From assembly GCA_947564645.1 (NCBI GenBank), contig CANOCU010000017.1, positions 1 through 59,924 of the forward strand: a stretch of 59,924 nucleotides of DNA. Direction: 5' to 3'. The stretch comes from an uncultured Lachnospiraceae bacterium (lineage in GTDB: Bacteria; Bacillota; Clostridia; Lachnospirales; Lachnospiraceae). The stretch's first letter is position 1. The number at the start of each line of letters is the position of its first letter. The translations under genes were made by a program, and so were the position numbers. A model generated the notes under the pieces. That model saw only the letters and a program-made list of their open reading frames with translations, searched no databases and was not told the DNA's origin. Below are positions 10,397 through 48,890 of this stretch, in pieces.

Positions 10397-10401
10397 ACGA
10401 T

Positions 10402-15536: not shown

Positions 15537-15541
15537 ATGTT

Positions 15542-16148: not shown

Positions 16149-16177
16149 AGAAGTACAGAGAAAGGAGAGCTTAGATT

Positions 16178-18223: not shown

Positions 18224-18250
18224 GGGCAAATCAAATGGAATGGGGAATTT

Positions 18251-23912: not shown

Positions 23913-23933
23913 AAGTAAGTTCCTCTCTTTCTG

Positions 23934-23947
23934 CCGCCAGATGGCGG
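23934..23947. other. Small hairpin between the GH78 and 779-aa genes
   Basis: CCGCC and GGCGG pair around AGAT, with TATTTTT on the plus-strand side only. On the transcribed (minus) strand the hairpin lies just before the ribosome binding site of the 779-aa gene and has no following U tract, so it is not a terminator for that operon. Confidence 0.4.
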
Positions 23948-23990
23948 TATTTTTCTTGTTTCATAGGAAAGTGCGTCTCGTTTTATTCCC

Positions 23991-26915: not shown

Positions 26916-26964
26916 GATAGAGCAGTAAGAAATTGGGACCATGAGTAAAGTAAAGGAGGAAGGT

Positions 26965-28326: not shown

Positions 28327-28342
28327 AGGGAAGTTTACGTGT

Positions 28343-28375
28343 GGTGTCTGCCGGCCGGATGGCGCGGCAGACACC
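28343..28375 (+). other. Intercistronic hairpin between binding protein and permease genes
   Basis: GGTGTCTGCCG (28343-28353) pairs perfectly with CGGCAGACACC (28365-28375), and the loop holds a further GCC/GGC stem. No U tract follows. Such hairpins protect the upstream mRNA and let binding proteins be made in excess over permeases. Confidence 0.7.
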
Positions 28376-28393
28376 GTGCAGATAGGAGTGTAT

Positions 28394-29371: not shown

Positions 29372-29390
29372 GTTGGAAATGGGGGTTAAA

Positions 29391-32246: not shown

Positions 32247-33899
32247 ATGAGAAGGAAATGGTTTATGGCCGGTATGGCGCTTACGGTGGGAATGCTTACG
32301 GCATGTGGAACTGACGGAAAACGTGGAGAGACGGGAGTGGAATCGACAGAGACAGCGGTTGAAGAGAAGCAGAATGCGCAGGAAGCCCAGGAAACGTCAA
32401 GTGCAGAATCGGCGGATGAGCAGCGGACGGCAGATGCAGGATCATCAGACGGGCAGCAGACACAGACGGACCAGGATACGGCAGACACCCTGCCGGAATA
32501 TCTGCAGGGAACAGACTTGTGCGGCACAGAGCTGATCGAGCATACATTCTCGGAAGTATCCGTGCATGATCCGTCGGTCATTAAGGCGGGAGACTCCTGG
32601 TATGTGTTTGGCTCTCATCTGGCGGCGGCTAAGACGGATGACCTGATGCACTGGACGCTGCTTGATTCCGGCGTGCATGAGGGGAATTCTATTATACCCG
32701 ATGCAAGGCAGGAGATGAAGGAGGCTTTTGACTGGGCGAAGACGGATACTTTCTGGGCGCCGGATGTGATACGGCTTGCCGACGGCAGATATTACATGTA
32801 TTACTGCAACTGTGAAGGGAGTTCGCCGCGCTCCGCTCTGGGGCTTGCGGTGGCGGATAACGTGGAAGGCCCCTACGAGGATCTGGGCGTTTTCCTGCGA
32901 TCCGGACAGGACAGCGGGATGCCGGATGAGGACGGGGAAGCTTACGACGCGACGGTGAAGCCGAATGTGGTGGATCCGGCCGTATTCTATGATAAGGAAG
33001 ACAGACTGTGGATGGTCTACGGTTCTTATTCGGGCGGGATCTATATTCTGGAATTGGACGACGCGACGGGACTTCCGCTTGAGACCGGTTATGGAAAGAA
33101 GCTTCTGGGCGGCAATCACCTGCGGATCGAAGCGCCCTACATTCTGTACAGTCCTGAGACCGACTATTATTACCTGTTTCTGTCCTTTGGCGGACTGGCC
33201 GCAGACGGCGGATACAATATCCGGGTGTGCCGGTCAAAGCAGCCGGACGGTCCCTATCTGGATGCGGAAGGGCAGGACATGATCGAGTGTAAGGGGCCTG
33301 TGGGCAGCTTCTTCGATGATTCTGCGGCCGGCAGGTACGGCGTGAAGCTGATGGGTAATTTTACATATCCCTACGTGGAGGGAGAGAACGGAAAATTCCG
33401 CTTCGGCTATGTTTCGCCGGGGCATAACAGCGCCTGTTACGAGGAGGAGACGGGAGAATATTTCCTGTTCTTCCACACCAGGTTTGAGGAGAAAGGCGAG
33501 GAACATCAGGTGCGGGTACACCAGATGTTTCTGAACGAAGAGGGCTGGCCGGTTGTCTCCCCTTATCGCTATACGGGAGAGAAACTAAAGACCGTGGACG
33601 AGAGCAGGATTCCCGGACCCTATAAGCTGGTCAACCACCTGCATAATATTTCTTCGGTGACACGGGCTTCGGAGGATATCGTACTTCACGAAGACCATAC
33701 GGTGAGCGGAAGCTATGAGGGTACCTGGGAACTGAAGGACGGGCACAGGGCGGTGCTTGTACTGAACGGTGTGGAATATAAGGGCGAGTGGATCCTGGAG
33801 TGGGACCAGTTCGGGTATAAGAATGTGATGACCTTTACGGCACTTTCCGACAAGGGCTACGCGGTCTGGGGAAGCGGTTATGCGGCCCAGGTCAACTGA
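32247..33899 (+). CDS. Surface lipoprotein GH43 endo-alpha-1,5-L-arabinanase
   Basis: A 550-aa lipoprotein that cuts the arabinan backbone outside the cell. The lipobox is GMLTACGTD at about residue 20, then a 65-residue Gln/Glu/Ser/Thr-rich linker. The GH43 propeller (about 95-440) has base Asp in VSVHDPSV, Asp in NVVDPAVFY, acid Glu in RIEAPYILY, and the SPGHNS His that binds the central calcium in arabinanases. FWAPDVIRLADGRYYMYY is also typical. A C-terminal beta-barrel domain (about 455-550) matches that of two-domain AbnB-like arabinanases. ATG 32247 follows ACGGAGATTACC. First gene of the second locus; its products would feed the downstream ABC importers and cytoplasmic GH43. Confidence 0.92.
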   Translation: MRRKWFMAGMALTVGMLTACGTDGKRGETGVESTETAVEEKQNAQEAQETSSAESADEQRTADAGSSDGQQTQTDQDTADTLPEYLQGTDLCGTELIEHTFSEVSVHDPSVIKAGDSWYVFGSHLAAAKTDDLMHWTLLDSGVHEGNSIIPDARQEMKEAFDWAKTDTFWAPDVIRLADGRYYMYYCNCEGSSPRSALGLAVADNVEGPYEDLGVFLRSGQDSGMPDEDGEAYDATVKPNVVDPAVFYDKEDRLWMVYGSYSGGIYILELDDATGLPLETGYGKKLLGGNHLRIEAPYILYSPETDYYYLFLSFGGLAADGGYNIRVCRSKQPDGPYLDAEGQDMIECKGPVGSFFDDSAAGRYGVKLMGNFTYPYVEGENGKFRFGYVSPGHNSACYEEETGEYFLFFHTRFEEKGEEHQVRVHQMFLNEEGWPVVSPYRYTGEKLKTVDESRIPGPYKLVNHLHNISSVTRASEDIVLHEDHTVSGSYEGTWELKDGHRAVLVLNGVEYKGEWILEWDQFGYKNVMTFTALSDKGYAVWGSGYAAQVN

Positions 33900-34046: not shown

Positions 34047-34179
34047 GGAAAGAAGGTGAAGGAATGTTTCCAACAACAAAGTGGCGCAGGGCGTCGGCTT
34101 TCGTGATGGCCGTGGCGGTGGCGGCGAGCGGGCTGACGGTGTGGGCCGGGGAAACGAACGAGAAGGGTTCGACTGACGG

Positions 34180-35310
34180 GTGGTCAATGCGGAATCTGCA
34201 TCCAACTATATCACGGACGATTTTTCCAGTGATATGGTGGAGACCAATTACACTGTCGTCAGCCAGAGCCTGAGCAGCCCTTACTATGAGGGGGAGCCGG
34301 TGATCATCCGGCCGACGGAACAGTTCCTGGCAGTGGACGGCACGCAGATCGAGCAGGAAGTGGACGGCTATGTGGGAGCCGGCGGCAGCAGCGCGGCGGT
34401 ACGGTTCGACATTCATGACTGCGGCGTCGTGACGGTGGAGGCGCCGGAGACCGCCCGCTATTACGTCAGCATGGATTATCTGGATGCGGGTAACAGTGTG
34501 CTGCCGCTGGAACTGTCCCTGAAGGTGAACGGGGAATATCAGTTCTACGAACTGCGGGATCTGGAATTCGAGGCAGTGTGGAGGGATCCGGAGGAGAAGT
34601 CCTTCGACCGGTACGGCAATCAGATCGTGCCGATGCCGGATAAGGTGGCGAAGTGGCAGACGAAGTATGTGATGGACGCCAGCCACAGGCATTCGAGGCC
34701 GCTGGCGATCGAACTGCAAAAGGGAGCCAATGAACTGGAGATCGGCATGATCGAAGGCACCATGCTTCTGGGAGAGATCACGCTGACCAGGGAACCTGCT
34801 ATTGCGGAATATACCGGTTCCGGGAAGGCCGAAGGGCAGGAGATGATCGTGATCGAGGCGGAGGAGATGGCGGAGCGGAATGCCTCATCGATCCGGGCGG
34901 CCTGCGAGTACGATATTGACCTGACGCCCTACGAGGTGGACACGAAGACCCTGAATACCATCGACAACGCTTCTTTTGCGGAGGCCGGACAGAAGATCAG
35001 CTATGAGTTTGAAGTGGAGAAGGCGGGCACCTACTATCTGGCGATGAATTTCAAGCAGAGTGAGAAGGCGGATTTCCCGGTGTTTGTCAACGTGGAGGTG
35101 GACGGGGAGATTCCAAACAGCGCTTTCTACAACTATGGACTGGGTTATGCGAAAGGCTACCAGACCAAAACCTTCGAGGACGGGGAGGGCAATAAGCTGA
35201 GTCTGGATCTGGAACCTGGTTCTCATACCATATCCTTCACGATCTCCGCGGACCCGATCCGCCATGTGCTAGAGGGCGTGGACCGGATCATGGGCGGGTC
35301 AATAACCTAA
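34180..35310 (+). CDS. Fragment: carbohydrate-binding-like middle part of the large binding protein
   Basis: This frame holds two similar beta-sandwich domains. The first (about residues 20-200) has VRFDIHDCGVVTVEAPETARYYVSMDYLD and ANELEIGMIEGTMLLGEITL; the second (about 220-370) has MIVIEAEEMAERNASSIR, YEFEVEKAGTYYLAMNFKQS and LDLEPGSHTISFTISADPI. Both follow the pattern of family 6/35-type carbohydrate-binding modules (the EAEEM strand, then AGTYYLxMxF and GxHTIxF). It has no signal peptide or ribosome binding site of its own, so it only makes sense joined to the flanking frames. Confidence 0.7.
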   Translation: MVNAESASNYITDDFSSDMVETNYTVVSQSLSSPYYEGEPVIIRPTEQFLAVDGTQIEQEVDGYVGAGGSSAAVRFDIHDCGVVTVEAPETARYYVSMDYLDAGNSVLPLELSLKVNGEYQFYELRDLEFEAVWRDPEEKSFDRYGNQIVPMPDKVAKWQTKYVMDASHRHSRPLAIELQKGANELEIGMIEGTMLLGEITLTREPAIAEYTGSGKAEGQEMIVIEAEEMAERNASSIRAACEYDIDLTPYEVDTKTLNTIDNASFAEAGQKISYEFEVEKAGTYYLAMNFKQSEKADFPVFVNVEVDGEIPNSAFYNYGLGYAKGYQTKTFEDGEGNKLSLDLEPGSHTISFTISADPIRHVLEGVDRIMGGSIT

Positions 35311-35330
35311 ATCTGGAGATCACGAAGGTT

Positions 35331-37079
35331 GTGGGCACCAACAAGGATAAATACCGTGATCTGGATATTGAGAAATATATACCGGACGCGATCGACCGTC
35401 TGGAAGAATATGCGGACACGCTGGACGCATTGTGCGAGAGCGTTAAGATCTACAATCCGAAGGTGAAAAAGATCGGGGCGTTTTCCTCCGCATCCGTGGC
35501 GTCCGGGCAGCTTCGGAGCCTGGCGTCCGAGCCGGATAAGCTGGGATTCCGTATCGCGGAACTGACCACCAGCACCAATTCCGTCAACCAGTTCCTGGCA
35601 AACCTGATCGACAGCCTGAATAAGAACCAGCTGGGCATCGACCGGATCTATCTGTACCAGGAAGGGGCGAAGCTGCCGAAGAATGCCGGATTCTTTGCCT
35701 CTGCGGGAGCCAGCGTCAAGCGGTTTGCCACCTCTTTTGCCTCGCAGGCTTACTCCACATCCAACACGGATGAGGCGCATCTGCAGGTGTGGGTGAACCG
35801 TTCCAGGCAGTATCTGGAGATCATGCAGAAGATGATCGACGAGGACTTCACGGCGAAGACAGGCATCGAGGTGGATCTGTCACTGATGCCGGATCAGAAT
35901 AAACTGATCCTGGCCAATGCATCCGGGGATGCGCCGGACATTGCCACCGGCATCAACTATGCCGTACCGTTCGAGCTGGGTATCCGAAACGCGGTCAAGG
36001 ATCTGACGGAGTTTGATGATTTTGTGGAGATCGCGGACCGGTTTGAGGAAGGGCTGCTGGTGCCGGCGACCATCGACGACGGGATCTATGCGCTGCCGGA
36101 GACGATGAATTTCTGGGTACTGTACGTGCGGACGGATATTTTCGACAAGCTAGTCCTGGAGGCGCCGGACACCCTGCAGGATGTGAAGAACCTTCTTCCG
36201 TCCCTGCAGATGAGAGGTATGAATTTCTATTATCCTACGGCGGGCATGCTGGCGCTGCGCAATTTCCACGGCACCACGCCGCTGATCCTGCAGAACGGCG
36301 GATCTTTGTATACACAGTATGCGGGGGATTCCAACCTGACCAGCGAGGAATCCGTGGCAGGCTTTAAGGAACTGACGGAGCTTTTCACGATCTACAATCT
36401 GCCCAAGGATATACCGAACTTCTACCAGCATTTTCGTAACGGCTCCATGCCCATAGGCATTGCGGACTATGCGGTTTACAACATGCTGTTAAACGCTGCA
36501 CCGGAGATCGCCAACAGCTGGGAGATCCGGATGGTGCCGGGCGAGATGGACGAGAACGGCAATGTGCTGCGGTATACTTCCGGCGGTGCGGAGAGTACGG
36601 TGATGTTCAACTCTACGCCGGAGCGGGAAGCACAGGCATGGGAGTTCATGAAGTGGTGGTCCTCTGCAGAGGTGCAGGCCCAGTTCGGACAGACGCTGCA
36701 GATCACCTACGGCAGTTCCTTCTTATGGAATACGGCCAACAAGGAAGCGTTCTCCATGCTGCCCTGGAAGACGAAGGACAAGGAGACGATCCTGGCACAG
36801 GCGGAGTGGATCAACGAATCTCCCAGACTGCCGGGCTCCTATATGGTAGAGCGTGAGATTTCCAACGCCTACAACTCCGTGGTGGTGGACGGTAAGAACC
36901 TGCGCCGGACGTTAGACAACGCGGTCAAGCGGATCAACCGGGAGACGGAGCGCAAGCTGGAGGAATTCGGCTATAACGACCAGAACGGCAATGTGATCAC
37001 GCCGTATGAGGTTCCGACCCTTGAGCGGGTACAGGAGATTCTCGGCAAGACAGACGGGAAGGGAGGCGAGGACGAATGA
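35331..37079 (+). CDS. Fragment: ABC substrate-binding domain of the large binding protein
   Basis: The 582-residue frame begins with a helical linker ([24 protein letters not shown]) and from about 150 is a CUT1 binding protein: [78 protein letters not shown] and [24 protein letters not shown]. The GTG start is arbitrary; the reading frame continues upstream as [11 protein letters not shown] until the frameshift near 35296. The C-terminus overlaps the permease start by ATGA. Binding proteins are normally 400-450 residues, so the added N-terminal 400 residues are unusual. Confidence 0.8.
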
Positions 37080-38044
37080 GCCAGACGATGAATCAGGCTA
37101 AGAACATGGCCCCGGCGCGCAAGGCAGAGACCGGAAAGAAAAGAAACAGCATCGGCAGACGGGAGAATGCGAACCCGGCGGCGAAATGGTTCCTGGCGCC
37201 GTACCTGCTTTTGTTCGTCGTCTTCATCATCGTTCCGATGGTGATTGCGATCGGCCTTTCTTTTACCAACTTTAATACGATCGAATTCCCCAGCTTTGCG
37301 GGATTCATGAACTATATCAACCTGATCACGCAGGACGAGATCTTCATGCAGTATGTCCTGCCCAATACCGTGGTCTATGTGCTGATCGTCGGCGTGGGAG
37401 GCTATATTCTGTCCTTCTTCCTGGCGTGGATCCTGGCACAGCTATCCAGGGTGCCGCGGACCATCCTGGCGTTGATCTTCTATTCGCCCAGTATGACCAG
37501 CGGCGTGGCGATGACCGTGTTGTGGAAGATCATCTTTACCGGGGATCAGACGGGTTACTTAAACAGCATCCTCATGAAGCTTGGCATTATTACGGAGCCG
37601 ATCATCTGGCTGGTGGATGTGCGCTATCTGCTGCCGATCGTGATCATTGTCGCATTGTGGCCCAACATGGGCGTGGGTTTCCTGGCCATGATGGCCGGGA
37701 TCCTGAATGCGGATGAGGAGCTTTACGAGGCGGGCGCCATCGACGGGATCAAGAACCGGTTCCAGGAGATGATCTATATCACGGTCCCGACCATGAAACC
37801 GCAGATGCTCTTCGGCGCGGTCATGGCGGTGGTGAATACGTTCTCCAACGGCGCCATCGGCGTGGCCCTGACGGGAACGAACCCGACGCCCGGCTACAGC
37901 GCGCAGCTGATCGTCAATCATATCGAGGACTATGGCTTTATCCGTTACGAGATGGGCTATGCCGCGGCGGTATCCGTGGTGCTGCTTCTGATCGTATGGC
38001 TGTTCTCGACCATGGCAAAGAAACTGTTTGCCGAGAAAGATTAG
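37076..38044 (+). CDS. Sugar ABC transporter permease (second importer, MalF-like)
   Basis: A 322-aa CUT1 permease. A basic cytoplasmic tail of about 40 residues precedes six membrane segments, the first at about 42-65 ([20 protein letters not shown]). The EAA loop is [29 protein letters not shown]. It overlaps the large binding-protein gene by four bases, so the two are translationally coupled. Pairs with the permease at 38061. Its ligand is probably an arabino-oligosaccharide, inferred from the arabinanase upstream. Confidence 0.93.
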
Positions 38045-38060
38045 AAAGGGGGATGGAGAA

Positions 38061-38933
38061 ATGGCTGGATATAGAGGGAGTAGTATCAATCCCAAAAAAT
38101 TTGAAAAAGGTCAGATCAAGCTGATCCTGGCGGTATCGCCTCTGGCAGTGCTCATGCTGCTGCCGATCATCTTCATCTTCTGCCATGCGTTCAAGCCCAT
38201 GGATGAGTTGTTCGCGTTTCCGCCCCGGTTTTTCGTCACCAGGCCGACGCTCGATAACTTCCGGGGACTGATGAAGGCATCGCAGACATCGGACATCCCG
38301 ATGAGCCGCTATGTGTTTAACTCTCTGGTGGTAACGCTTTCGGATGTGCTTTTGTCCATTGTCTTATCCACATCCGCAGGGTTTGCGCTTTCCAAGCTGC
38401 GATTCAAAGGGAAGGAAGCCCTGATGGAGATCAACAATATGGCGCTGATGTTCGTGCCGGTGGCAGTGATGATCCCCCGCTATCTGGTGATCAACGCGCT
38501 GGGCATGACCAACAATTACCTGGCGCACATCCTGCCGCTTCTGGCCATGCCGGTCAGCCTGTTTCTGGTGAAGCAGTTCATCGACCAGATTCCGGACGCA
38601 CTGATCGACGCGGCGTACATGGACGGCGCAACGGATTTTGTGGTATATGGCAGAATCATCCTGCCGATGGTGAAACCAGCCATCGCCACTTCCGCGATTC
38701 TCGCCTTCCAACAGGTATGGGCGAACGTGGAGAGTTCCAATCTGTACATGAACGAGGACGGCCTGCGTACCCTTGCCTTCTATATGAATACGCTGGCCAA
38801 CGCCAACAATACCGTTGCGGGGCAGGGAATCGCGGCGGCGGCAACGCTGATCATGTTTGTGCCGAATCTGGTGATGTTTATCTTCTGTCAGAAGAGCATT
38901 ATGAACACGATGGCACATTCGGGCATCAAGTAA
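38061..38933 (+). CDS. Sugar ABC transporter permease (second importer, MalG-like)
   Basis: A 290-aa CUT1 permease with six membrane segments (first at about 18-40, ILAVSPLAVLMLLPIIFIFCHAF). The EAA loop reads ALIDAAYMDGATDFVVYGRIILPMVKPAIA. ATG 38061 follows GAAAGGGGGATGG; a TTG at 38028 would overlap the previous gene and lacks a site. It completes the second importer. The NHL/TPR/YIP1 gene starts 13 bases after its stop, so they are certainly cotranscribed. Confidence 0.92.
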   Translation: MAGYRGSSINPKKFEKGQIKLILAVSPLAVLMLLPIIFIFCHAFKPMDELFAFPPRFFVTRPTLDNFRGLMKASQTSDIPMSRYVFNSLVVTLSDVLLSIVLSTSAGFALSKLRFKGKEALMEINNMALMFVPVAVMIPRYLVINALGMTNNYLAHILPLLAMPVSLFLVKQFIDQIPDALIDAAYMDGATDFVVYGRIILPMVKPAIATSAILAFQQVWANVESSNLYMNEDGLRTLAFYMNTLANANNTVAGQGIAAAATLIMFVPNLVMFIFCQKSIMNTMAHSGIK

Positions 38934-38946
38934 AGGGGGAAAGAAC

Positions 38947-40980
38947 ATGAAAAAGTGGAAAATCTGTTTGCTGGCTGTTCTTTCTGCGGTGCTTCTTATG
39001 CAGCCTGTCATGCAGGCCCGGGCGGAGGTTCCCTACAAGACCTATACCATCGACGGGTACGGCTATGTGACGGAGACCCAGACCGCCTATACGCCGAAAA
39101 CGACATTCAGCAAGATCGGGGATCATTCCCGGATACGTCCCTGCGACCTGAAGATTACAGAGGACGGTTATATCTATATCGCGGACGCGGGCGCCGGCGT
39201 GGTCTATGTATCCACCCTGGAAGGGGAGTATGTCAAGACCATCGGCGAGGGAGAACTGACGGAACCCTACGGCGTGTTCGTGACGGAAGAAAAGAACGTA
39301 TACGTGGCGGATCATGCCGGCAAGGTCGTGGTCTTTGACAGCAACGACAATGTATCCGCGGTATACACGAAGCCGGACCATCCGCTCTATGGCAGCGGTG
39401 ACTTCAAGCCGATCAAGATCGTGGTCAATGCAGGCGGCGACTTGTACATCGTCTGCGAGGGTAACTCCAACGGCCTGGTACAGCTGACGCCCACGGAGGG
39501 CGGCACCTTCCTCGGATACTTCGGCACCAACTATGCTTCGGTCACACTGCTGCGTATGGTGCAGGAAGCGGTCTTTACCGATGCGCAGTTAGCCAAAATG
39601 GTCTCCAACCTGCCGTCCACGCCTGTCAATGTGGCGATCGACAGGCAGGGGCTGATCTACACGGTGACGCCCGGCGAGGGGCAGTACAGCTTAAAGAAGC
39701 TGAACATCGCGGGCACGAACCTGATCGAGCCGGACGCCTATGACGGCAAGGAAGCGGCGGTGATCGTGGGCAACCATGACAATGTATATGTGGCATCCTC
39801 GGACGGCTATATCTACGAATATAACTCGGAAGGCGCGCTCCTGTTCGTGTTCGGCGGACGCGACGACGGACGGTTTCGCATCGGTCTGTCCAAGAAGGTG
39901 GAAGCCATCGATGTGGATGCGCAGGACAATATCTATATCCTGGATTCCGACGCAGCGCAGGTGCAGGTGTTCGAGACCACGGAGTTTACCAACCTGCTGC
40001 ACAATGCGCTGAACCTCTACGAGAACGGCCGCTATACGGAGAGCAAGGAACCGCTTGAGCAGGTGCTGGAAATGAACAGCCTGTTCGACTATGCGAACGA
40101 GGCCATGAGCCGTTCCTACCTGCAGGAGGAGAATTACGAGCAGGCGCTGAAATATGCGAGAGTATCCAAGGCATTTAGCGTCTATTCGGACGCCTTCTGG
40201 GAAGTGCGCAATACCTGGCTGCGGAACCATCTGATCGGGGCGGCGGGCATCCTGCTGTTAGTCGTGATCGTGATACAGCTCTTAAAAGCGGCCCAGCGGA
40301 AGAAGGGTATCTTCAATCCCCTGATCCGGGCCACCGAGAGGCCGAGAAACAGCGGCTACTGGCAGAGACTGAAATATATGACCTACTATATGAAGCATCC
40401 GGTGGACGGGGCATACGGCCTGCGCTATGAGGGCAAGAGCTCCTGGGTGACGGCGGGAACGCTGATCGTGCTGACCACCGCCATCTTCGTGATCAACAAG
40501 TATTACTGCGGTTTCCTGCTGCGCAATGTGCGGGAAGGCAGATATACGATCTTCAATGATGTGCTTTCCATCGTCGGCGTGTTCGTGGTCCTGACCGCGT
40601 GTAACTACCTGATGTGCACCATCAACGACGGAGAAGGCAGCTTCAAGCGGCTGTTCTGCGGGTTCGCGTTTGCGCTGACCCCCTATATCCTGTTCCAGCC
40701 GTTGTGTATCATTCTGAGCAATGTGATCACTTACAATGAAGTATTCCTGATCCAGTTCGGGCAGATCTTCATCATGGCATGGACGGTCATCCTGATCTTT
40801 ATGACGATCAAGGAAGTCAACAACTATACGGTCAAGGAAACCTTTAAGATCATTTTCCTGACGGCGTTTACGGTTTCGATCCTGGCGCTTTTGACCTTTA
40901 TCATCTATGTGCTGTTCAGACAGATCGTGGAGTTCTTTGCGGCAGTGGCAGGAGAGGTGGTGTATCGAATTGGCAAATAA
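38947..40980 (+). CDS. Secreted NHL-repeat/TPR protein with C-terminal YIP1-like membrane domain
   Basis: A 677-aa membrane protein of unknown function. A signal peptide (KWKICLLAVLSAVLLMQP) is followed by an NHL-type beta-propeller at about residues 50-345, with blades such as PCDLKITEDGYIYIADAGAGVVYV, EPYGVFVTEEKNVYVADHAGKVVVF and KVEAIDVDAQDNIYILDSDAAQVQVF. Two TPR-like helices follow (ALNLYENGRYTESKEPLEQVLEMN, NYEQALKYARVSK), then a membrane segment at about 425-445. The C-terminal 220 residues resemble the YIP1 fold, with about five membrane segments. ATG 38947 follows AAAGGGGGAAAG. It sits between two ABC importers with a DUF5696-like gene and may sense or organise glycan uptake outside the membrane; this is inference. 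Confidence 0.8.
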   Translation: MKKWKICLLAVLSAVLLMQPVMQARAEVPYKTYTIDGYGYVTETQTAYTPKTTFSKIGDHSRIRPCDLKITEDGYIYIADAGAGVVYVSTLEGEYVKTIGEGELTEPYGVFVTEEKNVYVADHAGKVVVFDSNDNVSAVYTKPDHPLYGSGDFKPIKIVVNAGGDLYIVCEGNSNGLVQLTPTEGGTFLGYFGTNYASVTLLRMVQEAVFTDAQLAKMVSNLPSTPVNVAIDRQGLIYTVTPGEGQYSLKKLNIAGTNLIEPDAYDGKEAAVIVGNHDNVYVASSDGYIYEYNSEGALLFVFGGRDDGRFRIGLSKKVEAIDVDAQDNIYILDSDAAQVQVFETTEFTNLLHNALNLYENGRYTESKEPLEQVLEMNSLFDYANEAMSRSYLQEENYEQALKYARVSKAFSVYSDAFWEVRNTWLRNHLIGAAGILLLVVIVIQLLKAAQRKKGIFNPLIRATERPRNSGYWQRLKYMTYYMKHPVDGAYGLRYEGKSSWVTAGTLIVLTTAIFVINKYYCGFLLRNVREGRYTIFNDVLSIVGVFVVLTACNYLMCTINDGEGSFKRLFCGFAFALTPYILFQPLCIILSNVITYNEVFLIQFGQIFIMAWTVILIFMTIKEVNNYTVKETFKIIFLTAFTVSILALLTFIIYVLFRQIVEFFAAVAGEVVYRIGK

Positions 40981-43411
40981 GAGATTACGGATTTTAAGAA
41001 ACAGAACAGTGGCTGCCTGCCTGGCAGCAGCCCTGCTTGTCACACCGCTGCAGGCTTTGGCGGAAGAAGAAACGCCGGATGCCGAGAGCGGGGAGAGCGA
41101 AGCCTCGGATACCACGGCAGAAAGCGCCGGGGATGCGGCGGCAGCGGACGAGGTGGCGGACGTCACCCTTTCCGTGGAAGACAGGAAGGAAGCGCTGGCG
41201 GAAGCGATCGTTACCGAAGACGCAGCGTCGATCAAGGGGCACGAGCTTGTGGCGCAGAACGACGCCCTGGCCCTGTATCTGTATGAACCGACCCTTTCCC
41301 TGATCGTCCGGGATAAGAAGACCGGCGCCATCATGGAATCCACGGTGCAGGAGAGTGACGGGACGCTGAACACATCCTGGGAGAATTTCATCAAGTCCGG
41401 GATTGGGTTTGACATCCTGAACGATGTGAACGAGGAGCGGTCGGATCTGCTCTCCGCGGAGGCGGATATCGCGGTAACGAAGAGCGGGGACGGATTCAGT
41501 GCGGCCGTGAACCTGACTAAGTATCAGATCTCCTTTACCCTGCAGGTGACTTTGCAGGAGGACGGGATCCTGGTGGAGATTCCCAATGAGTCCATCGTGG
41601 AGGAACAGGAGAAGGTTAAGCTGGGGAATGTCTACGTCTATCCGTTTATGGGCTATACCTATTCCTATGAGCGGGAAGGATACATGCTGATGCCCGACGG
41701 CAACGGCGCGCTGATCTATCTGGAGGATAACGACGGCAGATTCACTTCGCCGCTGACGCTGAAGGTGTGGGGCGACAATGCCGGTGTGGATGAGAGCTAT
41801 GTGCTGTCGCTGTTCTGGGAAGAATACCAGACGGTCAACGACGCGGAGCCCGTGCTGGCCCCGGTGTTCGGTATGGTGCACACGGATTCTGCGTTCGCCA
41901 TGCTGGGCATCATCGAGGAAGGCGCGGAGGATGCGAGGATCACGGCTTATCCCAACGGTGCGATCACCAACTATAACTGGATCTCCCCGCGGTTTACCCT
42001 GCGGCGGATCTATAAGCAGCTGATGAGTAAGGAGGGAACGAGCGCGGTGCAGCTCCAGGAAGAAAAGCGCGCCCAGTGCAATATCCGGATGCGCTACGTC
42101 TTCACCCATGAGGAGGAAGCCGATTACGCGGGGCTGGCCGTCAAGTACAGAGAGTATCTGCTTGAGAAGCTTGGCGCGAAGCAGGAGCAGTTCCGGATCC
42201 GCCTGGATTTCCTGGGGACGGACCGGGAAAACGGTATGATCTTCAAGAAACCGGTGGTCATGACGACGACGGACGATGTCCGGGCTATTTACGACGACCT
42301 GCAGACGGAGGGGGTGACCGATATCTTCTCCATCTACAAGGGCTGGCAGGACGGCGGCATCTGGAGTATGCCGATCTCCAAATACAAGGCGGATAATAAG
42401 ATCGGCGGCACGAAGGACCTGACGAAGCTTCTGCAGGAAGCGGAGGAGAGAGGAATCGAACTGTATCTGTATCAGGACGCGCTGCGCGCCAACCCGGATA
42501 CGGTCAACACCACCTTCAACGTGATCAAGAAGCTGGACGAGAGCGTGTACCAGGAGAATACCTACAAGGAGATCTACGAGAGCTTTAACTTCCAGACGCC
42601 TGCGCAGGCGGTGAAGAAGCTGAACGAGAGCCTGGCCTCCTATCGGAAAAAGGGCGTGAGCAATCTGGCGCTGACGGGGGTGACCAACCATCTGTACAGC
42701 TATAACTATAACGGAAAACAATATAACCGCAGTGAGAACCTGCAGGTATTTTCCCAGGCATTGCAGGAGGCGTCGGCGGATTTCGGCCTGGCGATGGAAC
42801 AGCCTTTTTCCTGCTACTGGGAGATGACGGACAGTGTTGTGGGGATGCCGGTCAGCACATCCGACTATATTTTCACGGATGAGGAGGTGCCGTTTCTCTC
42901 CATCGCATTGAAGGGCGTGCTGCCGATGTATGCGGACTATACGAACTTCGAGGCGAACAAGAGCGAGTATTTCCTGCGTCTCGTGGAGACGGGGATCTTC
43001 CCTTCCTTCTATCTGACCTGGGAAGACCCGGTGGACCTTCTGTATACCAATTCTTCCGACCTGTATACCTCCCGCTACGGTGTATACAGGGATGAGATCA
43101 TAGATACGTACAACCGGCTGAAGGCTGTCAATGAGCAGACCGAAGGCGCCATGATCGTGGACCGGGAAAGAAACGCCGACGATGTGGCAGTGGTGACTTA
43201 CGACAACGGGGTGAAGGTCTATGTGAATTATAATGAGAAATCCGTAACATGTGACGGCACAGCCCTGGATAATCGGTGTGCTCATCTTCGTGCTGCGGCC
43301 TTTGGCACAGTCCTTCCATTTCGCCCTGAGCCGTGTGAAGATGACGCCGAAAGGCAGGGAGATCACCTTCATCGGGATCCAGAACTTTACGCAGATCCTG
43401 CAGGAGGATGA
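40970..43411 (+). CDS. Secreted DUF5696-like protein, probable TIM-barrel glycan-active protein; 3' end damaged
   Basis: An 813-aa frame starting at TTG 40970 behind GGAGAGGTGGTG and overlapping the previous stop by 11 bases. Signal peptide: ILRNRTVAACLAAALLVTPLQALA. An acidic linker is followed by a beta-rich N-domain (about 90-340; NDALALYLYEPTLSLIVRDKKTG) and a TIM-barrel-like part (about 390-720) with TDIFSIYKGWQDGGIWSMP, RGIELYLYQDALRANPD and DFGLAMEQPF. I assign it to DUF5696 from overall resemblance. Native sequence seems to end near NYNEKSVTCDGTAL (about 43265). The last 45 or so residues are the permease gene read in another frame, so the normal end and the intergenic spacer are missing. 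Proteins of this kind recur beside such importers; activity is unknown. Confidence 0.72.
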   Translation: MANKRLRILRNRTVAACLAAALLVTPLQALAEEETPDAESGESEASDTTAESAGDAAAADEVADVTLSVEDRKEALAEAIVTEDAASIKGHELVAQNDALALYLYEPTLSLIVRDKKTGAIMESTVQESDGTLNTSWENFIKSGIGFDILNDVNEERSDLLSAEADIAVTKSGDGFSAAVNLTKYQISFTLQVTLQEDGILVEIPNESIVEEQEKVKLGNVYVYPFMGYTYSYEREGYMLMPDGNGALIYLEDNDGRFTSPLTLKVWGDNAGVDESYVLSLFWEEYQTVNDAEPVLAPVFGMVHTDSAFAMLGIIEEGAEDARITAYPNGAITNYNWISPRFTLRRIYKQLMSKEGTSAVQLQEEKRAQCNIRMRYVFTHEEEADYAGLAVKYREYLLEKLGAKQEQFRIRLDFLGTDRENGMIFKKPVVMTTTDDVRAIYDDLQTEGVTDIFSIYKGWQDGGIWSMPISKYKADNKIGGTKDLTKLLQEAEERGIELYLYQDALRANPDTVNTTFNVIKKLDESVYQENTYKEIYESFNFQTPAQAVKKLNESLASYRKKGVSNLALTGVTNHLYSYNYNGKQYNRSENLQVFSQALQEASADFGLAMEQPFSCYWEMTDSVVGMPVSTSDYIFTDEEVPFLSIALKGVLPMYADYTNFEANKSEYFLRLVETGIFPSFYLTWEDPVDLLYTNSSDLYTSRYGVYRDEIIDTYNRLKAVNEQTEGAMIVDRERNADDVAVVTYDNGVKVYVNYNEKSVTCDGTALDNRCAHLRAAAFGTVLPFRPEPCEDDAERQGDHLHRDPELYADPAGG

Positions 43412-44201
43412 GACCTTCCCTACGGAGCTGGCGGCTTATCTGGTAAAGACCGTTATGGCGGTGCCGATCATCGTGGTGTTTGCGCTGATCATTGCCTTGT
43501 TACTCAATGCGAAGATCAAGGGAAAGGGCGTTTTCAGGCTGATCTTCTTCCTGCCGGTGATCATCGCTAGCGGCCCGGTAATGGCGCAGCTGGTGTCCCA
43601 GGGGGCGGGTTCGATCCCGGCTATGAATACGTCCATGATCGAGTCGATGATCGGTTTTCTGCCCGGTTTTATCGTCAGTGCGATCATGGGGCTGTTCGAG
43701 AATATCGTCATGTATCTCTGGTATTCCGGGGTGCAGATCCTGATCTTCCTGGCCGCAGTGCAGAAGATCGACAATTCGCTGTACGAGGCGGCGAAGATGG
43801 ACGGCGGTTCCACCTGGGAGTGTTTCTGGAAGATCACCCTGCCGACGATCAAACCGATGACGCTTTTGAACGTGGTCTATACCATCGTGTATCTGTCCAA
43901 CAACGAGCAGAACACCATCATTGAGACGATCAAGGATGCCATGTTCGGCACCACGGGCAGCAAGGGATATGGATACGCGTCCGCGATGGCATGGCTGTAC
44001 GCGGTGATCGTGACGCTTCTGGTGATCGTCTTCGCGGCGGCGCTGGCCTTAAAGAAGGACGTCTATGCGAAGAAGGCGAAGAAGTACAGGAAAGAACAGA
44101 AGAAACAGGAAAGACTGATCAGAAAGATCGAGAAGAGGGGGGAGCAATATGAAAAGCAGAAAGCAAAACGAACTGCAAAAGCCGCAAAGGCCGTCCATTA
44201 A
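43251..44201 (+). CDS. Sugar ABC transporter permease (third importer, MalF-like), N-terminus missing
   Basis: A CUT1 permease of 316 residues from GTG 43251, which has no convincing ribosome binding site. Homologous sequence begins at once with PWIIGVLIFVLRPLAQSFHFALS, the first membrane segment. The usual 20-30 residue cytoplasmic start is absent, and the frame overlaps the DUF5696-like frame by 161 bases. The remainder looks intact: six membrane segments and the EAA loop SLYEAAKMDGGSTWECFWKITLPTIKP. A basic C-terminal tail (KKAKKYRKEQKKQERLIRKIEKR) is longer than usual. The arrangement suggests a deletion joining the two genes. If translated by coupling, the protein could still insert in the membrane. 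Confidence 0.85.
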   Translation: MTAQPWIIGVLIFVLRPLAQSFHFALSRVKMTPKGREITFIGIQNFTQILQEDETFPTELAAYLVKTVMAVPIIVVFALIIALLLNAKIKGKGVFRLIFFLPVIIASGPVMAQLVSQGAGSIPAMNTSMIESMIGFLPGFIVSAIMGLFENIVMYLWYSGVQILIFLAAVQKIDNSLYEAAKMDGGSTWECFWKITLPTIKPMTLLNVVYTIVYLSNNEQNTIIETIKDAMFGTTGSKGYGYASAMAWLYAVIVTLLVIVFAAALALKKDVYAKKAKKYRKEQKKQERLIRKIEKRGEQYEKQKAKRTAKAAKAVH

Positions 44202-45168
44202 GGCAAAAGCCGTGGCAGCCCCGGGAAGGAGGCTTGACCGGTATGCGGTCAGGAAATGGTTTTTTGGCTCGAAGGATACGCAGGGCGTGGGCAAACTGAT
44301 CGCCATATACGGCCTGCTGATCTGTATCGGCTTTGTGTATCTGTATCCGCTCCTTTACATGATCTCCAAGAGCCTGATGCAGCGTGCGGACCTGCTTGAC
44401 AGTTCCGTGAACTGGATCCCCAGCGTGCTCTATGTGAAAAACTATGTGGATGCGTTTACGAGTATGGATTTTATGCGGACCCTATGGCAGTCCGTAGTGA
44501 TCGCGGGCGCACCCACGCTGCTCAACATGGTCATGTGCGCGGTGATCGGCTATGGGTTTGCACGGTATGATTTTCCGCTTAAAAATGTGATGCTGGGAAT
44601 CCTGATCTTTTCCTTCATCATTCCGCCGCAGATCACGATGATGCCAAACTATCTGCTGTATAACGATTTAAAGATACTGGATTCCATCAAGGCGTTCTTA
44701 CTGCCGGCGTTTCTGGGGCAGGGGATCAAGGCGCAGCTCTATATCCTGATCTTCTTCCAGTTCTTCCGGCAGATCCCGCAGGCGCTGATCGAGGCGGCGA
44801 AGATCGACGGATGCGGACATTTTAAGACGTTCCTCAGGATTGCGGTCCCGTCTGCGGCGCCGGCGATCCTGGTGGTATTCCTGTTCTCCCTGGTGTGGTA
44901 CTGGAACGAATCCTACCTCACACAGCTGTATGTGTGCGGCGTCCTGGGAGACAGCTTCTGGAATACCCTGATGGTGGCCCTGAAGGGCTTTAACGACAGT
45001 TATTCCCAGGTGGGCGGCTCCGTCACCGGCGAGGCCATGGGCAGTCTGAACGAAGGTATTAAGATGGCGGCGACCATGCTTTCCATCCTGCCGGTGCTTC
45101 TTCTCTACTTCGTCCTGCAGAAGCAGTTCGTGGAGAGCGTGGACCGGACCGGTATCACCGGCGAGTAA
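44149..45168 (+). CDS. Sugar ABC transporter permease (third importer, MalG-like)
   Basis: A 339-aa CUT1 permease. It has an unusually long basic cytoplasmic start (about 55 residues: KQNELQKPQRPSIKAKAVAAPG) before the first membrane segment at about 50-72 (LIAIYGLLICIGFVYLYPLLYM). The EAA loop is ALIEAAKIDGCGHFKTFLRIAVPSAAPA. ATG 44149 follows AGGGGGGAGCAAT, so the 53-base overlap with the previous permease appears genuine. It forms the third importer with the genes at 43251 and 45258. Confidence 0.92.
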   Translation: MKSRKQNELQKPQRPSIKAKAVAAPGRRLDRYAVRKWFFGSKDTQGVGKLIAIYGLLICIGFVYLYPLLYMISKSLMQRADLLDSSVNWIPSVLYVKNYVDAFTSMDFMRTLWQSVVIAGAPTLLNMVMCAVIGYGFARYDFPLKNVMLGILIFSFIIPPQITMMPNYLLYNDLKILDSIKAFLLPAFLGQGIKAQLYILIFFQFFRQIPQALIEAAKIDGCGHFKTFLRIAVPSAAPAILVVFLFSLVWYWNESYLTQLYVCGVLGDSFWNTLMVALKGFNDSYSQVGGSVTGEAMGSLNEGIKMAATMLSILPVLLLYFVLQKQFVESVDRTGITGE

Positions 45169-45257
45169 TGCGAAGAGAAGTTCTAAGAAAGAGTGTTTAC
45201 CCGTCTTCCATAAGGGAGGCGGGAACCTATAAAAACAATAAGGAGGATTTCACAAGT

Positions 45258-46781
45258 ATGAAAAGGAAGATTTTAAGTATACTGTTGAGTACGGCAATGA
45301 TGGTTTCCATGTTGGCGGGATGCGGGAGCGCTCCGGCATCCACTGACAGCGGTTCCGGGCAGGAAGAGAGCGGTGAGGCTGCGGAGAGCGGCGACGCGGC
45401 GGCAGCAGAGGGCGGTGAGGCGTCCGCGCTTCCGGAGATGATCAAGGACGAGATCGAACTGACTTATATGAACTTCGACAACAAGGTGCTGACAGAATAT
45501 CTGGCGGAGAAGTTTATGGAGAAATACCCGAATATCAAGGTGAATGTAGTCTATGTGGCGGCAGGGGAGGAGTATAACGATACGCTGCTGAACCTGGTCA
45601 ATACGGGAAAGACGCCCGACTGTTTCATGATCCTGGGCAACTGCGATTTCGCGCTTTCCAACAGCCTTCTGGGCGATATGACCACTTACTGGGAGAACGA
45701 TCCGGAAAATGAGAACGTGCTTCCTTCCATCAACGGCGCGAAGCTCGGCTACTATGGCTCCGACCAGAAGCTGTCCACGCCGATGAAGTTTTTCCCGGAT
45801 GCACTGTATGCGGATATGGCGGTGTTCGAGAAGCTGAATGTGGCGATGCCGCCCACAGACTGGAGCTGGGACGAGATGATCCAGGCGTTTAAGGACGTGA
45901 CTTCCCCGGACCAGGGCATCTACGGCTTCAACCAGTTCCACTCGATCGTGACTTACTATCCGGTGGCGGCGGATCCCGACTGCATCGGCGAGTTCGGATG
46001 GAACGGCAGGGAATTTGATCTGACCAACTGGGCAGTGGGCGTGAATGCGCTGGGCGATCTGATGAAGGGCAAATACCGTGCGCCGCTCACGGAGGAAGAG
46101 ATCGTGGCATGGCTTGGCTCCAATGAGTGGGCGGGCGCTTCCGGCAAGATCGGTTTCCAGATCGACGCGTTCTGGACCTACCTGAACCTGTTTGACACCG
46201 AGGAATACAGAAACAAGGGAATCGAGTTCGTTCCGTATGCAACGCCTTCCGTGGAAGGAACCAATGCGAAATATAAATTCGGCGTACTGGATTTCGGCGG
46301 CATCTCCTCCGGCACGGAGTATCCCAGAGAGGCATATGAACTGCTGAAATTCATGGGCTGGGGACTGGACGGCTGGAAGGCCAAGATGGAAGCCTATAAG
46401 ACACTGACCGATGAAGAGGCAGGCGTTGAGATCTGGAAACAGTCCATGCCCGCACCGCTGACCATGGACGAGGAGATCTGGACCGATTATCAGACCACTT
46501 TCTTCCCCAGCCTGAAGAAAGCGGATGCTGACCAGACCGATAAGGATAAGAAATACGGCCAGTACTTCGATCAGGTGAAACAGGGCGTGATCCCGTTCGG
46601 CGACTGCCAGATCCCCGGTTTCGCAGGCTTCGTGGGACCGGACGGCCCTTATGCCGGCGTAGAGGATTCCGTATTTAACGGGGAAAAGAACGCCAATGAC
46701 TGGGTGAGCGAGTTGACGGAGAAGGCAAACGAGTACAACAGGCAGGCAATGTCCGACGCGGGATTGACGGCGGCGGAATAA
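45258..46781 (+). CDS. Sugar ABC transporter substrate-binding lipoprotein (third importer)
   Basis: A 507-aa lipoprotein. The lipobox is SMLAGCGSAP at about residue 20, followed by a Ser/Gly/Glu/Ala linker. The mature protein begins IELTYMNFDNKVLTEYLAEKFMEKYPNIKVNVVYV and contains TPDCFMILGNCDF and GGISSGTEYPREAYELLKFMGWGL, as in family 1 binding proteins; it is about 60 residues longer than average. ATG 45258 follows AAGGAGGATTTCACAAGT, the strongest site in this operon, fitting high expression. A terminator follows. Likely ligand: an arabino-oligosaccharide, from context only. Confidence 0.92.
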   Translation: MKRKILSILLSTAMMVSMLAGCGSAPASTDSGSGQEESGEAAESGDAAAAEGGEASALPEMIKDEIELTYMNFDNKVLTEYLAEKFMEKYPNIKVNVVYVAAGEEYNDTLLNLVNTGKTPDCFMILGNCDFALSNSLLGDMTTYWENDPENENVLPSINGAKLGYYGSDQKLSTPMKFFPDALYADMAVFEKLNVAMPPTDWSWDEMIQAFKDVTSPDQGIYGFNQFHSIVTYYPVAADPDCIGEFGWNGREFDLTNWAVGVNALGDLMKGKYRAPLTEEEIVAWLGSNEWAGASGKIGFQIDAFWTYLNLFDTEEYRNKGIEFVPYATPSVEGTNAKYKFGVLDFGGISSGTEYPREAYELLKFMGWGLDGWKAKMEAYKTLTDEEAGVEIWKQSMPAPLTMDEEIWTDYQTTFFPSLKKADADQTDKDKKYGQYFDQVKQGVIPFGDCQIPGFAGFVGPDGPYAGVEDSVFNGEKNANDWVSELTEKANEYNRQAMSDAGLTAAE

Positions 46782-46825: not shown

Positions 46826-46855
46826 CAATCTATGTATAGTTTTTTGAAAAAAACT

Positions 46856-46885
46856 TTGGAAAAATGTAAAAAAGGATGCTATGAT
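46856..46885 (+). promoter_or_regulatory. Probable promoter of the cytoplasmic GH43 gene
   Basis: TTGGAA at 46856-46861 and TATGAT at 46880-46885, 18 bases apart, in an A/T-rich stretch after the terminator; GH43 starts 25 bases downstream of the -10. Confidence 0.5.
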
Positions 46886-46909
46886 AATAAAGAAGGATGG
46901 AAGAACAGT

Positions 46910-47881
46910 ATGAGTGAGCGCAATGAAAGTGAAATAAAATGGAATGAACCGTGGATCCTGCAGCGCGCGGATCCTTATGTATACCGCCATGTGGATGGCA
47001 GCTATTATTTTACCGCTTCCGTTCCGGCCTATGACAGTATCGTGCTGCGCCATGCGGATACGCTGGCGGGACTGGCAAAGGCTAAGGAGACGGTGGTGTG
47101 GAGGAAGCATGAGAACGGCCCTATGAGCGAGCATGTGTGGGCGCCGGAGCTGCATTTCCTGGAAGGGAAATGGTATCTTTACTTTGCGGCCGGAGAGGCC
47201 GAAGATATCTGGGAGATCAGACCTTACGTACTGGAATGTGAGGATGCAGATCCGCTTACGGGACGTTGGACGGAGAAGGGGAAGATGCAGTGCGCGGAGG
47301 AAGATCCCTTTTCCTTCCGGGGCTTTTCGCTGGACGGAACGGTCTTCGGGAACAAGGGGGAACATTACTATGTATGGGCGGAGAAAGTCGGCGTGGGCAA
47401 ACAGATCTCCAACCTGTATATTGCGCGGATGGAAAGTCCCTGGAAACTGCAGACCGTGCAGGTGCTTCTGACGACGCCGGATTATGACTGGGAGCGCGTG
47501 GGATTCTGGGTCAATGAGGGCCCAGCGGTGGTGAAACGGGACGGCAGGATCTATCTGACCTATTCCGCCAGCGAGACGGGCGTGGCGTATTGTATGGGGA
47601 TGCTGACGGCGGACGAGGATGCGGACCTCTTAGATCCTCTCTCCTGGAAGAAGGAGCGTTATCCGGTGCTGGCCAGTGACGCACAGAAGGGAATCTACGG
47701 ACCGGGCCACAACTCTTTTACCACGGATGAAGCGGGAAATACGGTGATGGTGTACCATGCCAGGACGGAGACGGAGATCGAAGGAAATCCGCTCTATAAT
47801 CCGAACCGGCATGCCATGCTGATGAAGGTGAAGTGGGACGACGGGGGAAGACTGGTGTTTTCCTTTGGGCAGGAAGCGTAG
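46910..47881 (+). CDS. GH43 alpha-L-arabinofuranosidase-like enzyme (cytoplasmic)
   Basis: A 323-aa single-domain GH43 propeller without signal peptide. The base Asp is in LQRADPYVYRHVDGSYYFTASVP, the central Asp in FSLDGTVF, and the acid Glu in FWVNEGPAVV; GIYGPGHNSF supplies the His of the calcium site. VWAPELHFLEGKWYLYFAAGE is a further hallmark. Close relatives are annotated as exo-acting alpha-L-arabinofuranosidases. ATG 46910 follows AAGGATGGAAG. It has its own promoter and is followed after 67 bases by the ArsR-like regulator. It probably degrades arabino-oligosaccharides that the two importers upstream bring in. Confidence 0.9.
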   Translation: MSERNESEIKWNEPWILQRADPYVYRHVDGSYYFTASVPAYDSIVLRHADTLAGLAKAKETVVWRKHENGPMSEHVWAPELHFLEGKWYLYFAAGEAEDIWEIRPYVLECEDADPLTGRWTEKGKMQCAEEDPFSFRGFSLDGTVFGNKGEHYYVWAEKVGVGKQISNLYIARMESPWKLQTVQVLLTTPDYDWERVGFWVNEGPAVVKRDGRIYLTYSASETGVAYCMGMLTADEDADLLDPLSWKKERYPVLASDAQKGIYGPGHNSFTTDEAGNTVMVYHARTETEIEGNPLYNPNRHAMLMKVKWDDGGRLVFSFGQEA

Positions 47882-47948: not shown

Positions 47949-48890
47949 ATGATGTATATCAGGAATCTGGAAGACGGAGTGGAGCTGTTCAAGACGCTTG
48001 GATCCGAGCTGCGGGTGAACATTATCCGTCTTTTGCTCAAAAACAAAGAAATGAACATGAACGAGATTGCCACCAGCCTGAATATTACCTGTGGGGCACT
48101 CACCAGCCATATCAAGAAGCTGGAGGATGTGGGACTGATCCAGGTGCGCGTCGATTTCGGCGGACACGGCAACCAGAAGATCTGCCGGGTGGCGCAGGAG
48201 CGGCTGCTGGTAGATATCGTTCCCACAGAGGAAGACAGTAACGTGGGCTTCTATGAAGCCGAGGTGCCCGTGGGACAGTACAGCAATTACAGTGTGTACC
48301 CTACCTGCGGTATTGCCACGACGACGTCGCTGATCGGCGAAGTGGATGATTCCCGCTATTTCGCCCACCCCGACCGGATCAACGCGGGTATCTTATGGTT
48401 TACCAAAGGGTATGTGGAATATCTGATCCCCAATGTACTGCCGGTGGCACAGAAGATCGATGAGATCACCTTCTCCATGGAACTTTCCAGTGAGGCGCCC
48501 GGGGTCAACAGCAACTGGCCGTCGGATATCTCATTCTGCCTGAACGATGAGCCCATCGGCATCTGGACTTCCCCGGGGGACTTCGGGGATGTGCGCGGTA
48601 TCTTTACGCCGGACTGGTGGTTCCCCAACTGGAACCAGTACGGGCTTCTGAAGATGCTTGTCATCAACAGGCAGGGCACCTTTATTGACGGTTTGAAGAT
48701 ATCGGATGTCTCGTTGGAGCACTTCGGGCTGGATTATAAGAGTACCATCCGGCTGAAGATGGAAGTGCGCGAGGACGCGGTGCATGTGGGCGGGATGACG
48801 CTGTTCGGAAACGGATTCGGCAACTACGGACAGGGTATCCGGGTGCGGATGCGCTACAGTCCGATGGACGGGACGGTGAAGGAACAATAA
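47949..48890 (+). CDS. ArsR-like winged-helix regulator with a large C-terminal beta-rich sensor domain
   Basis: A 313-aa DNA-binding protein. The N-terminal winged helix (about 8-75) reads LFKTLGSELRVNIIRLLLKNKEMNMNEIATSLNITCGALTSHIKKLEDVGLIQ, an ArsR/MarR-like fold, without metal-binding Cys pairs. The C-terminal 220 residues are strand- and aromatic-rich (ITFSMELSSEAPGVNSNWPSDISFCLNDEPIGIWTSPGDFG, then TPDWWFPNWNQYG), suggesting a jelly-roll ligand domain, probably for a sugar. ATG 47949 is ten bases after a G9 tract; ATG 47952 is also possible. It closes the arabinan locus and is the likely regulator acting at TTTAG-N6-CTAAA. ArsR-like regulators with such C-terminal domains occur beside GH43 genes, but the ligand is not established here. 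Confidence 0.85.
   Translation: MMYIRNLEDGVELFKTLGSELRVNIIRLLLKNKEMNMNEIATSLNITCGALTSHIKKLEDVGLIQVRVDFGGHGNQKICRVAQERLLVDIVPTEEDSNVGFYEAEVPVGQYSNYSVYPTCGIATTTSLIGEVDDSRYFAHPDRINAGILWFTKGYVEYLIPNVLPVAQKIDEITFSMELSSEAPGVNSNWPSDISFCLNDEPIGIWTSPGDFGDVRGIFTPDWWFPNWNQYGLLKMLVINRQGTFIDGLKISDVSLEHFGLDYKSTIRLKMEVREDAVHVGGMTLFGNGFGNYGQGIRVRMRYSPMDGTVKEQ

Follow-up and report, generated by a model that had tools for sequence, protein, structure and literature searches.

On the 59,924-nucleotide stretch of uncultured Lachnospiraceae DNA analysed here (the window), a run of eight genes appears, on balance, to encode one conserved CUT1-like ABC glycan-uptake system in which two permease pairs share extracytoplasmic accessory proteins. 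The parts are known singly, and the combined seven-to-eight-gene machine, as recognised from its sequence, seems to be without a description: none of the whole gene set was found in the open-licence literature on DUF5696, bacterial YIP1, and the NHL repeat, judged by title and abstract opening. The genes (A to H) and their two glycoside hydrolase neighbors, which likely belong to the same pathway, are as follows.

32247..33899, plus strand: GH43 enzyme with GH43_C domain, upstream neighbor (domain scan)
34064..37079, plus strand: A, large secreted binding protein with two frame breaks (Pfam, PDB profile matches, comparison with relative L091)
37076..38044, plus strand: B, permease with EAA loop (Pfam, loop alignment)
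38028..38933, plus strand: C, permease with EAA loop (Pfam, loop alignment)
38947..40980, plus strand: D, signal peptide, NHL propeller, TPR, membrane helix, and Yip1 bundle (Pfam, structure model, hydropathy)
40907..43270, plus strand: E, DUF5696 protein with GH129/GH101 fold and N-terminal hydrophobic segment, start uncertain and C-terminal end lost (Pfam, fold search, alignment)
43251..44201, plus strand: F, EAA-loop permease that lacks its natural start and first residues in the window (Pfam, loop alignment, alignment with relatives)
44149..45168, plus strand: G, EAA-loop permease of uncertain start (Pfam, loop alignment)
45258..46781, plus strand: H, version-specific lipoprotein solute-binding protein (lipobox, Pfam, match to 6rjy)
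46832..47881, plus strand: GH43 enzyme, downstream neighbor (domain scan)

The first-pass annotation had placed these eight parts in the same order on a single strand, and the open reading frames of the window and the Pfam assignments (solute-binding proteins, four BPD_transp_1 permeases, Yip1, and DUF5696) agreed with it. Its large binding protein as one open frame did not hold: compared with the close relative L091 (89% DNA identity), in which A is a single frame, the window gene has two breaks, near 34,180 and 35,297. The apparent overlap of the DUF5696 gene with the permease that follows it (43,251–43,411) is not natural either. Relatives carry extra sequence at this junction, with match gaps of 136 bp (L091), 139 bp (L092), and 147 bp (L093), and a global alignment with L091 gives 147 bp missing from the window, so that E has lost its end and F its start. 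The genome is a draft of 140 contigs (91% complete), and the breaks and the junction loss may reflect either assembly error or real decay. Searches of the window for tRNAs and RNA families gave nothing relevant.

The cluster resembles CUT1 sugar ABC importers (MalFGK2, MsmEFGK, and AbnEFJ type) in having EAA-loop permeases of the MalF/MalG type, a sugar-binding protein, and an ATPase that is often encoded elsewhere. All four permeases scored above the Pfam BPD_transp_1 cut-off, and the EAA coupling loop with its Gly is present in each of B, C, F, and G of the window. Across the family, the Gly of the aligned loop is kept in 147/147 B, 150/150 C, 174/174 F, and 171/171 G. The idea that F is a decayed permease, raised by motif counts of 104 and 110 of 175, was therefore wrong; the motif used was too strict. 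No MalK-type ATPase gene was found within the window cluster. In the genome of the window, the C-terminal fragment of a MalK-like ATPase lies at the edge of a contig, an ATPase gene is directly 5' of A in Paenibacillus cellulosilyticus, and MalK-like ATPases were near 3 of the 180 loci compared across genomes, with none found near most.

Sugar-type solute-binding proteins are indicated by SBP_bac_1/8 Pfam matches and by PDB profile matches for both A and H. Protein A (~1000 residues) has a carbohydrate-binding, GH115_C/CBM35-like N-terminal part, a helical stretch, and a solute-binding domain, with residues 295–393 matching 5x7g and residues 558–865 matching oligosaccharide-binding proteins. 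This size, the carbohydrate-binding part, and the absence of a lipobox from most A, along with two permease pairs per operon and the presence of D and E, distinguish the cluster from CUT1 importers. H is a second solute-binding protein, with a lipobox visible in the window sequence. The annotated eight-gene set was not borne out in this respect, as the H type of the window was found mainly with fused D and H was dropped from the core.

The seven remaining parts are kept in order in 139 of the 180 loci (175 distinct E), more often than by chance, as ABCDEFG in 134 and as DEFGABC in 5. Strong matches to D and E fell in identical sets of genomes, 37 of 398 from the same phylum, in scans that scored only two to three candidates per genome, and 10 of 41 close relatives; the DUF5696 model also gave weak matches, under its cut-off, in 2 of 14 control genomes. 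The D-E pairs adjoin the permeases F/G, and mostly A-B-C as well, and F is beside E in every locus whose flank extends that far. The coupling of the two central proteins to the importers, as first annotated, is thus supported, and the contrary pattern that it named, in which the central genes would mostly lack importers, did not appear across the loci. Nine loci lack an A-B-C immediately adjacent to the DE(FG) block, and an A-B-C block free of DEFG occurred once, which weakens the case for one fixed complex. Such separate blocks, the EAA loops that each permease pair has of its own, and binding proteins for both halves would all suit a rival reading in which A-B-C and F-G-H are separate sugar importers of the ordinary kind and their co-transcription with E, a surface glycosidase, and D, a membrane protein of other function, is fortuitous. 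We consider this unlikely given that D and E match the same genomes, that F constantly adjoins E, and that the seven parts stay together in both block orders. Distance correlations between parts (0.88–0.96), calculated without species-tree control, were given no weight.

Downstream proteins were sampled in three sets (101 of 181, 94 of 160, and 93 of 93, with two proteins omitted from the first set and three from the third). The neighbor families across loci include GH43, GH130, GH26, GH3, CBM65, GH42, and GH67, with GH43 being the commonest among the downstream neighbors of the genome-contig loci (35 of 99 scanned). The P. cellulosilyticus copy speaks against a glycan role, as it adjoins flavin oxidoreductases and the portion examined contains no glycosidase. 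Since the neighboring enzymes vary between versions, this looks like a general glycan system. For the window version, the arabinan cargo first suggested is supported by the GH43 neighbors and by the match of H to the arabino-oligosaccharide-binding protein 6rjy, and arabinan-derived oligosaccharides are the most likely cargo as judged from these similarities.

Protein E was assigned to DUF5696 (PF18952; 578.7 bits against a cut-off of 25.6; E-value 3.7e-173), and its predicted overall fold matches that of GH129 enzymes over the full length. This link was derived from the fold search and from the GH129 enzymes caught by the DUF5696 model. A sequence profile of E against the PDB returned no true relative, only designed proteins and kinases (E-value 0.037 or worse). 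The Pfam model Glyco_hydro_129 had no match to E of L091 and L073 at E-value ≤1, and among GH129 enzymes L211, L213, and L216 pass its cut-off, whereas L221 and L222 fall short. The strand end nearest to NagBb Asp435 (DagB Asp486), placed with an uncertainty of a few residues in register, carries Gly in 85 of 172 E and Asp in 43. In 20 of 172, acidic residues occupy both position 566 and position 606, the residues of the GH129 metal site are without a match in the E alignment, and the sole acidic column kept in at least 95% of E, Glu669, sits in a helix of the model. We conclude, from the modelled fold and the alignment, that E is probably a GH129/GH101-fold protein that lost its catalytic residues; it differs from the GH129/GH101 alpha-N-acetylgalactosaminidases and DagB in these two respects and in being tied to importers. 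The earlier description as a secreted DUF5696-like protein has to be changed in that E is not featureless. As some members keep an acidic residue at one putative catalytic position, and those 20 at both, E may act as an enzyme in part of the versions. It could even be an active extracellular alpha-glycosidase in general, of a new family near GH129/GH101 with other catalytic residues, that trims chains at the importer mouth. The shared full-length fold, the surrounding glycoside hydrolase genes, the acidic residue that 85 of 106 fused-type members have at position 606, and the precedent of a changed catalytic residue in GH129-like enzymes, as described for DagB (PMC5698469), are consistent with such an enzyme, whereas the scarcity of acidic residues at the catalytic positions and the helical location of Glu669 make it improbable.

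Protein D has an NHL propeller (residues 46–346), TPR (346–407), then a membrane helix and a Yip1 bundle. Yip1 scored 49.4 bits (Pfam cut-off 28.6), NHL of the window protein, at 19.2 bits, narrowly missed its cut-off of 20, and the TPR match was weak. In the predicted structure, the propeller resembles TRIM71 NHL and Pizza6, and the Yip1 part is a multi-helix membrane bundle by model helices and hydropathy, which agrees with the topology first proposed, with the propeller and TPR outside and Yip1 in the membrane. YknW, a Yip1-family subunit of the ABC transporter YknWXYZ, works with the transporter and affects its assembly (PMC4338810). A similar partnership may hold for D, as suggested by gene linkage. 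YknWXYZ is a MacAB-kind efflux pump, whereas D bears a propeller plus TPR and is encoded with importers.

The window also encodes a response regulator (18251–19807) and, judged from its open reading frame, a likely histidine kinase (19804–21621), and both types are annotated beside the Butyrivibrio fibrisolvens copy. These genes might indicate that D-E and the permeases form a sensing complex signalling extracellular glycan inward, not a part of transport. Ordinary sugar importers often have such two-component genes as neighbors, the coupling loops are kept in all permeases, and neither Pfam nor the structure model revealed a cytoplasmic signalling domain in D, making this reading very improbable.

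In the favored uptake system, the Yip1 domain of D would pack against the permeases in the membrane, with its propeller and TPR facing outward as a docking platform at which A, through its carbohydrate-binding part and binding protein and mostly without a lipobox, could be held. E would bind or thread a glycan chain and pass it to the pores, H would be the substrate-specific binding lipoprotein, and a MalK-type ATPase, usually encoded elsewhere, would drive both permease pairs. A more ambitious version, which we put forward only tentatively and rather doubt, places all parts in one four-permease membrane assembly. Its A-B-C translocon would be shared, its D-E-F-G(-H) front ends would be interchangeable and specific to the substrate, and the pseudo-glycosidase and the Yip1-anchored propeller would thread large glycan chains into the cell. 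The likeness to the Sus systems of Bacteroidota would be by analogy and in the proposed role only, i.e., surface glycan capture and passing to a pore. ABC-type permeases are present here in place of SusC/SusD, and no Pfam match to a SusC TonB-dependent porin or a SusD lipoprotein was detected in the nine pieces scanned.

Most of what is known of complex-glycan uptake by Bacillota in gut and soil concerns single importers that handle small oligosaccharides. If true, the four-permease assembly would be the Gram-positive equivalent of Sus, without homology to it, and one translocon would serve several front ends. Culturable carriers of the system include Anaeromicropila populeti and Butyribacter intestini, and in two genomes about ten E copies occur with four A copies. 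Strong E matches were found in 42 of 200 same-family genomes and some genomes have eight to ten E copies, which, with D and E in 37 of 398 genomes, suggests that such systems may represent a sizeable unlabelled share of glycan uptake. The proposed system also provides a hypothesis for the function of DUF5696, of bacterial Yip1 proteins beside importers, and of the 1000-residue binding protein that mostly has no lipobox.

All eight parts were read from the window sequence in the order that the first-pass annotation had claimed, and Pfam assigned domains to each of them.

A, + strand: large secreted binding protein, GH115_C-like and SBP domains
B and C, + strand: first permease pair, BPD_transp_1 in each
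D, + strand: membrane protein, Yip1 at 482–650 (E 6e-13) plus NHL and weak TPR
E, + strand: DUF5696 (E 4e-173)
F and G, + strand: second permease pair, BPD_transp_1 in each
H, + strand: binding lipoprotein, SBP_bac_1

The "very short gaps" also claimed for this copy were in part artefact or decay, as indicated by damage relative to an intact copy on a contig of an uncultured Lachnospiraceae MAG (L091; E protein 90% identical), which was used as the reference. Gene A, one unbroken frame in L091, is interrupted in the window near 34,180 and again near 35,297, each time by a single-base frame break within a G-rich stretch. At 43,269, the expected E end and F start, the window lacks 147 bp present in L091; by blastn the missing piece is 136, 139 and 147 bp in L091 and two further relatives (L092 and L093), respectively, and its flanks share an overlap of 8 to 11 bases in the window. 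All three relatives carry E and F as separate frames. B, C, D, G and H differed from L091 only by changes that keep the reading frame or in the chosen gene ends. The source genome is a draft (140 contigs, 91% complete; the window is contig C17), and the contig end cuts a partial tRNA at 1–48 (+; Rfam 29.5 bits, gathering 29).

The gene set was profiled in 180 loci (distinct E in 175), i.e., 60 regions from 200 same-family genomes, the best 80 among matches in genome_contigs, and 40 loci from 398 same-phylum genomes. A-B-C-D-E-F-G lay on one strand in 134 loci and D-E-F-G-A-B-C in 5; a stricter count demanding a long A as well also found all parts in 134. Of the remaining 41, 32 run into a contig or region boundary where the missing genes would lie, and nine had no A-B-C adjoining DE(FG) in the flank (L080, L179, L180, L181, L185, L186, L188, L199 and L210; L080 also had no recognised propeller). 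A was encoded elsewhere in all seven genomes behind the eight of these loci other than L080. A single A-B-C block was seen without D-E-F-G nearby (L234). Strong E matches (E ≤ 1e-90) were detected in 42 of the 200 same-family genomes.

Because all 180 loci were found through E, they are uninformative on D occurring alone, and a D profile was run against the 398 same-phylum genomes (2–3 candidates scored per genome). Strong matches (E ≤ 1e-45) occurred in 37, identical to the 37 with full-length E; one genome (G441) had a propeller fragment only (E 1.4e-25), and 34 more gave weak NHL-type matches only. Among 41 close relatives, D and E were both present in the same 10, with weak NHL-type matches in three more.

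D was a single gene in 106 of the 174 loci with usable E and two adjoining genes (propeller/TPR, then Yip1) in 66, with two unassigned, and this alternation of fused and split forms suggests that D may act as one working unit. E matches exceeded A matches in three genomes (10 versus 4 in G261 and in G334, where one of the ten is a fragment; 8 versus 4 in G364) and equalled them in four (G300, 3; G540, 4; G592 and G438, 1 each); G239 and G281 were excluded for their many fragments. Median pairwise identity in 30 sampled loci was 46% for B, 41% for C, 34% for F and G, 30% for A, 29% for D (propeller gene) and 25% for E. Together, copy numbers and identities suggest, but do not prove, that the B/C pore is the more constant part and the D-E-F-G half the more variable one.

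The EAA-loop glycine was kept in all aligned permeases (B 147/147, C 150/150, F 174/174, G 171/171), so both pairs should couple to an ATPase. The cluster itself contains no ATPase gene. A motif scan of the available flanks of the 180 loci found a MalK-like ATPase about 3 kb or less from the cluster in three (L151, L153 and L156) and a different ABC ATPase at greater distance in three more. A UgpC ATPase gene directly precedes A on a Paenibacillus cellulosilyticus plasmid (L243), and the window's genome holds the C-terminal part of a MalK-like ATPase at a contig edge.

In PDB profile searches, A matched sugar-binding proteins at 558–865 and, at 295–393, a stretch of a cycloisomaltooligosaccharide glucanotransferase (5x7g, E 5e-7) that we take to be CBM35; Pfam CBM_35 reached only E 0.23. 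A has a Sec-type start, yet no more than 7 of 62 sequences, with start sites set approximately, carry a lipobox-like motif. A stand-alone protein like A's N-terminal part only is encoded far from the cluster in locus L233 (G000:C2, 8479–9693, +). The lipoprotein H matched 22hh best (E 3.5e-11, ligand not named), and an arabino-oligosaccharide-binding protein was also among its matches (6rjy, E 4.8e-11). Among loci L211, L213, L216, L221, L222 and L226, the DUF5696 model was over cut-off on the five GH129-type proteins scanned, and DUF6259 matches overlapped as well; DUF5696, GH101, GH129 and DUF6259 thus look like one superfamily.

The window encodes the following glycan-related genes around the cluster.

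16178: GH42
23991: rhamnosidase
30239, 32247 and 46832: GH43
50055–52562, + strand: AraC-type regulator with a fused GH39-like domain, which may be a glycosidase fold recruited for sugar sensing

Pfam matched nothing at E ≤ 0.001 in a 779-residue protein encoded next to the rhamnosidase gene (21576–23912, −), and the PDB gave no relative by sequence (best E 0.24); the protein possibly represents an undescribed glycan-active family. A separate sugar-type importer precedes a GH43 gene (26941–30212, +; its ORFs suggest a binding lipoprotein and a pair of permeases, the permeases matching weakly). The GH43 gene of the cluster is immediately followed by the gene of a likely regulator (47949–48890, +), which combines an ArsR-like winged-helix domain with a C-terminal part that has no domain assignment.

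In the genome_contigs loci, almost all of which carry the version seen in the window, downstream neighbours included GH43 (n = 35), GH43_C (n = 11) and arabinofuranosidase C-terminal domains (n = 5) among 99 of 181 collected proteins scanned. Same-family regions, with both versions, had SBP (n = 9), CBM65 (n = 7), GH130 (n = 6), GH43 (n = 6) and GH3 (n = 5; 94 of 160 scanned), and same-phylum regions SBP (n = 15), GH26 (n = 5), GH43 (n = 4) and GH42 (n = 3; 90 of 93 scanned). Downstream of the P. cellulosilyticus set (6110–25430) lie genes for three LLM flavin oxidoreductases and for two binding proteins, which hints at a different cargo, possibly other than plant-type glycans.

The cluster brings together parts of known types in a conserved combination, of which literature searches returned no published description. 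Linkage, folds and motifs are the basis for reading ABC and DEFG(+H) as one glycan-uptake system, in which contacts between parts, transport activity and E's function are proposals. The varied glycan-enzyme neighbours suggest that the system handles several plant-type glycans, with arabinan the likeliest cargo of the window's copy.
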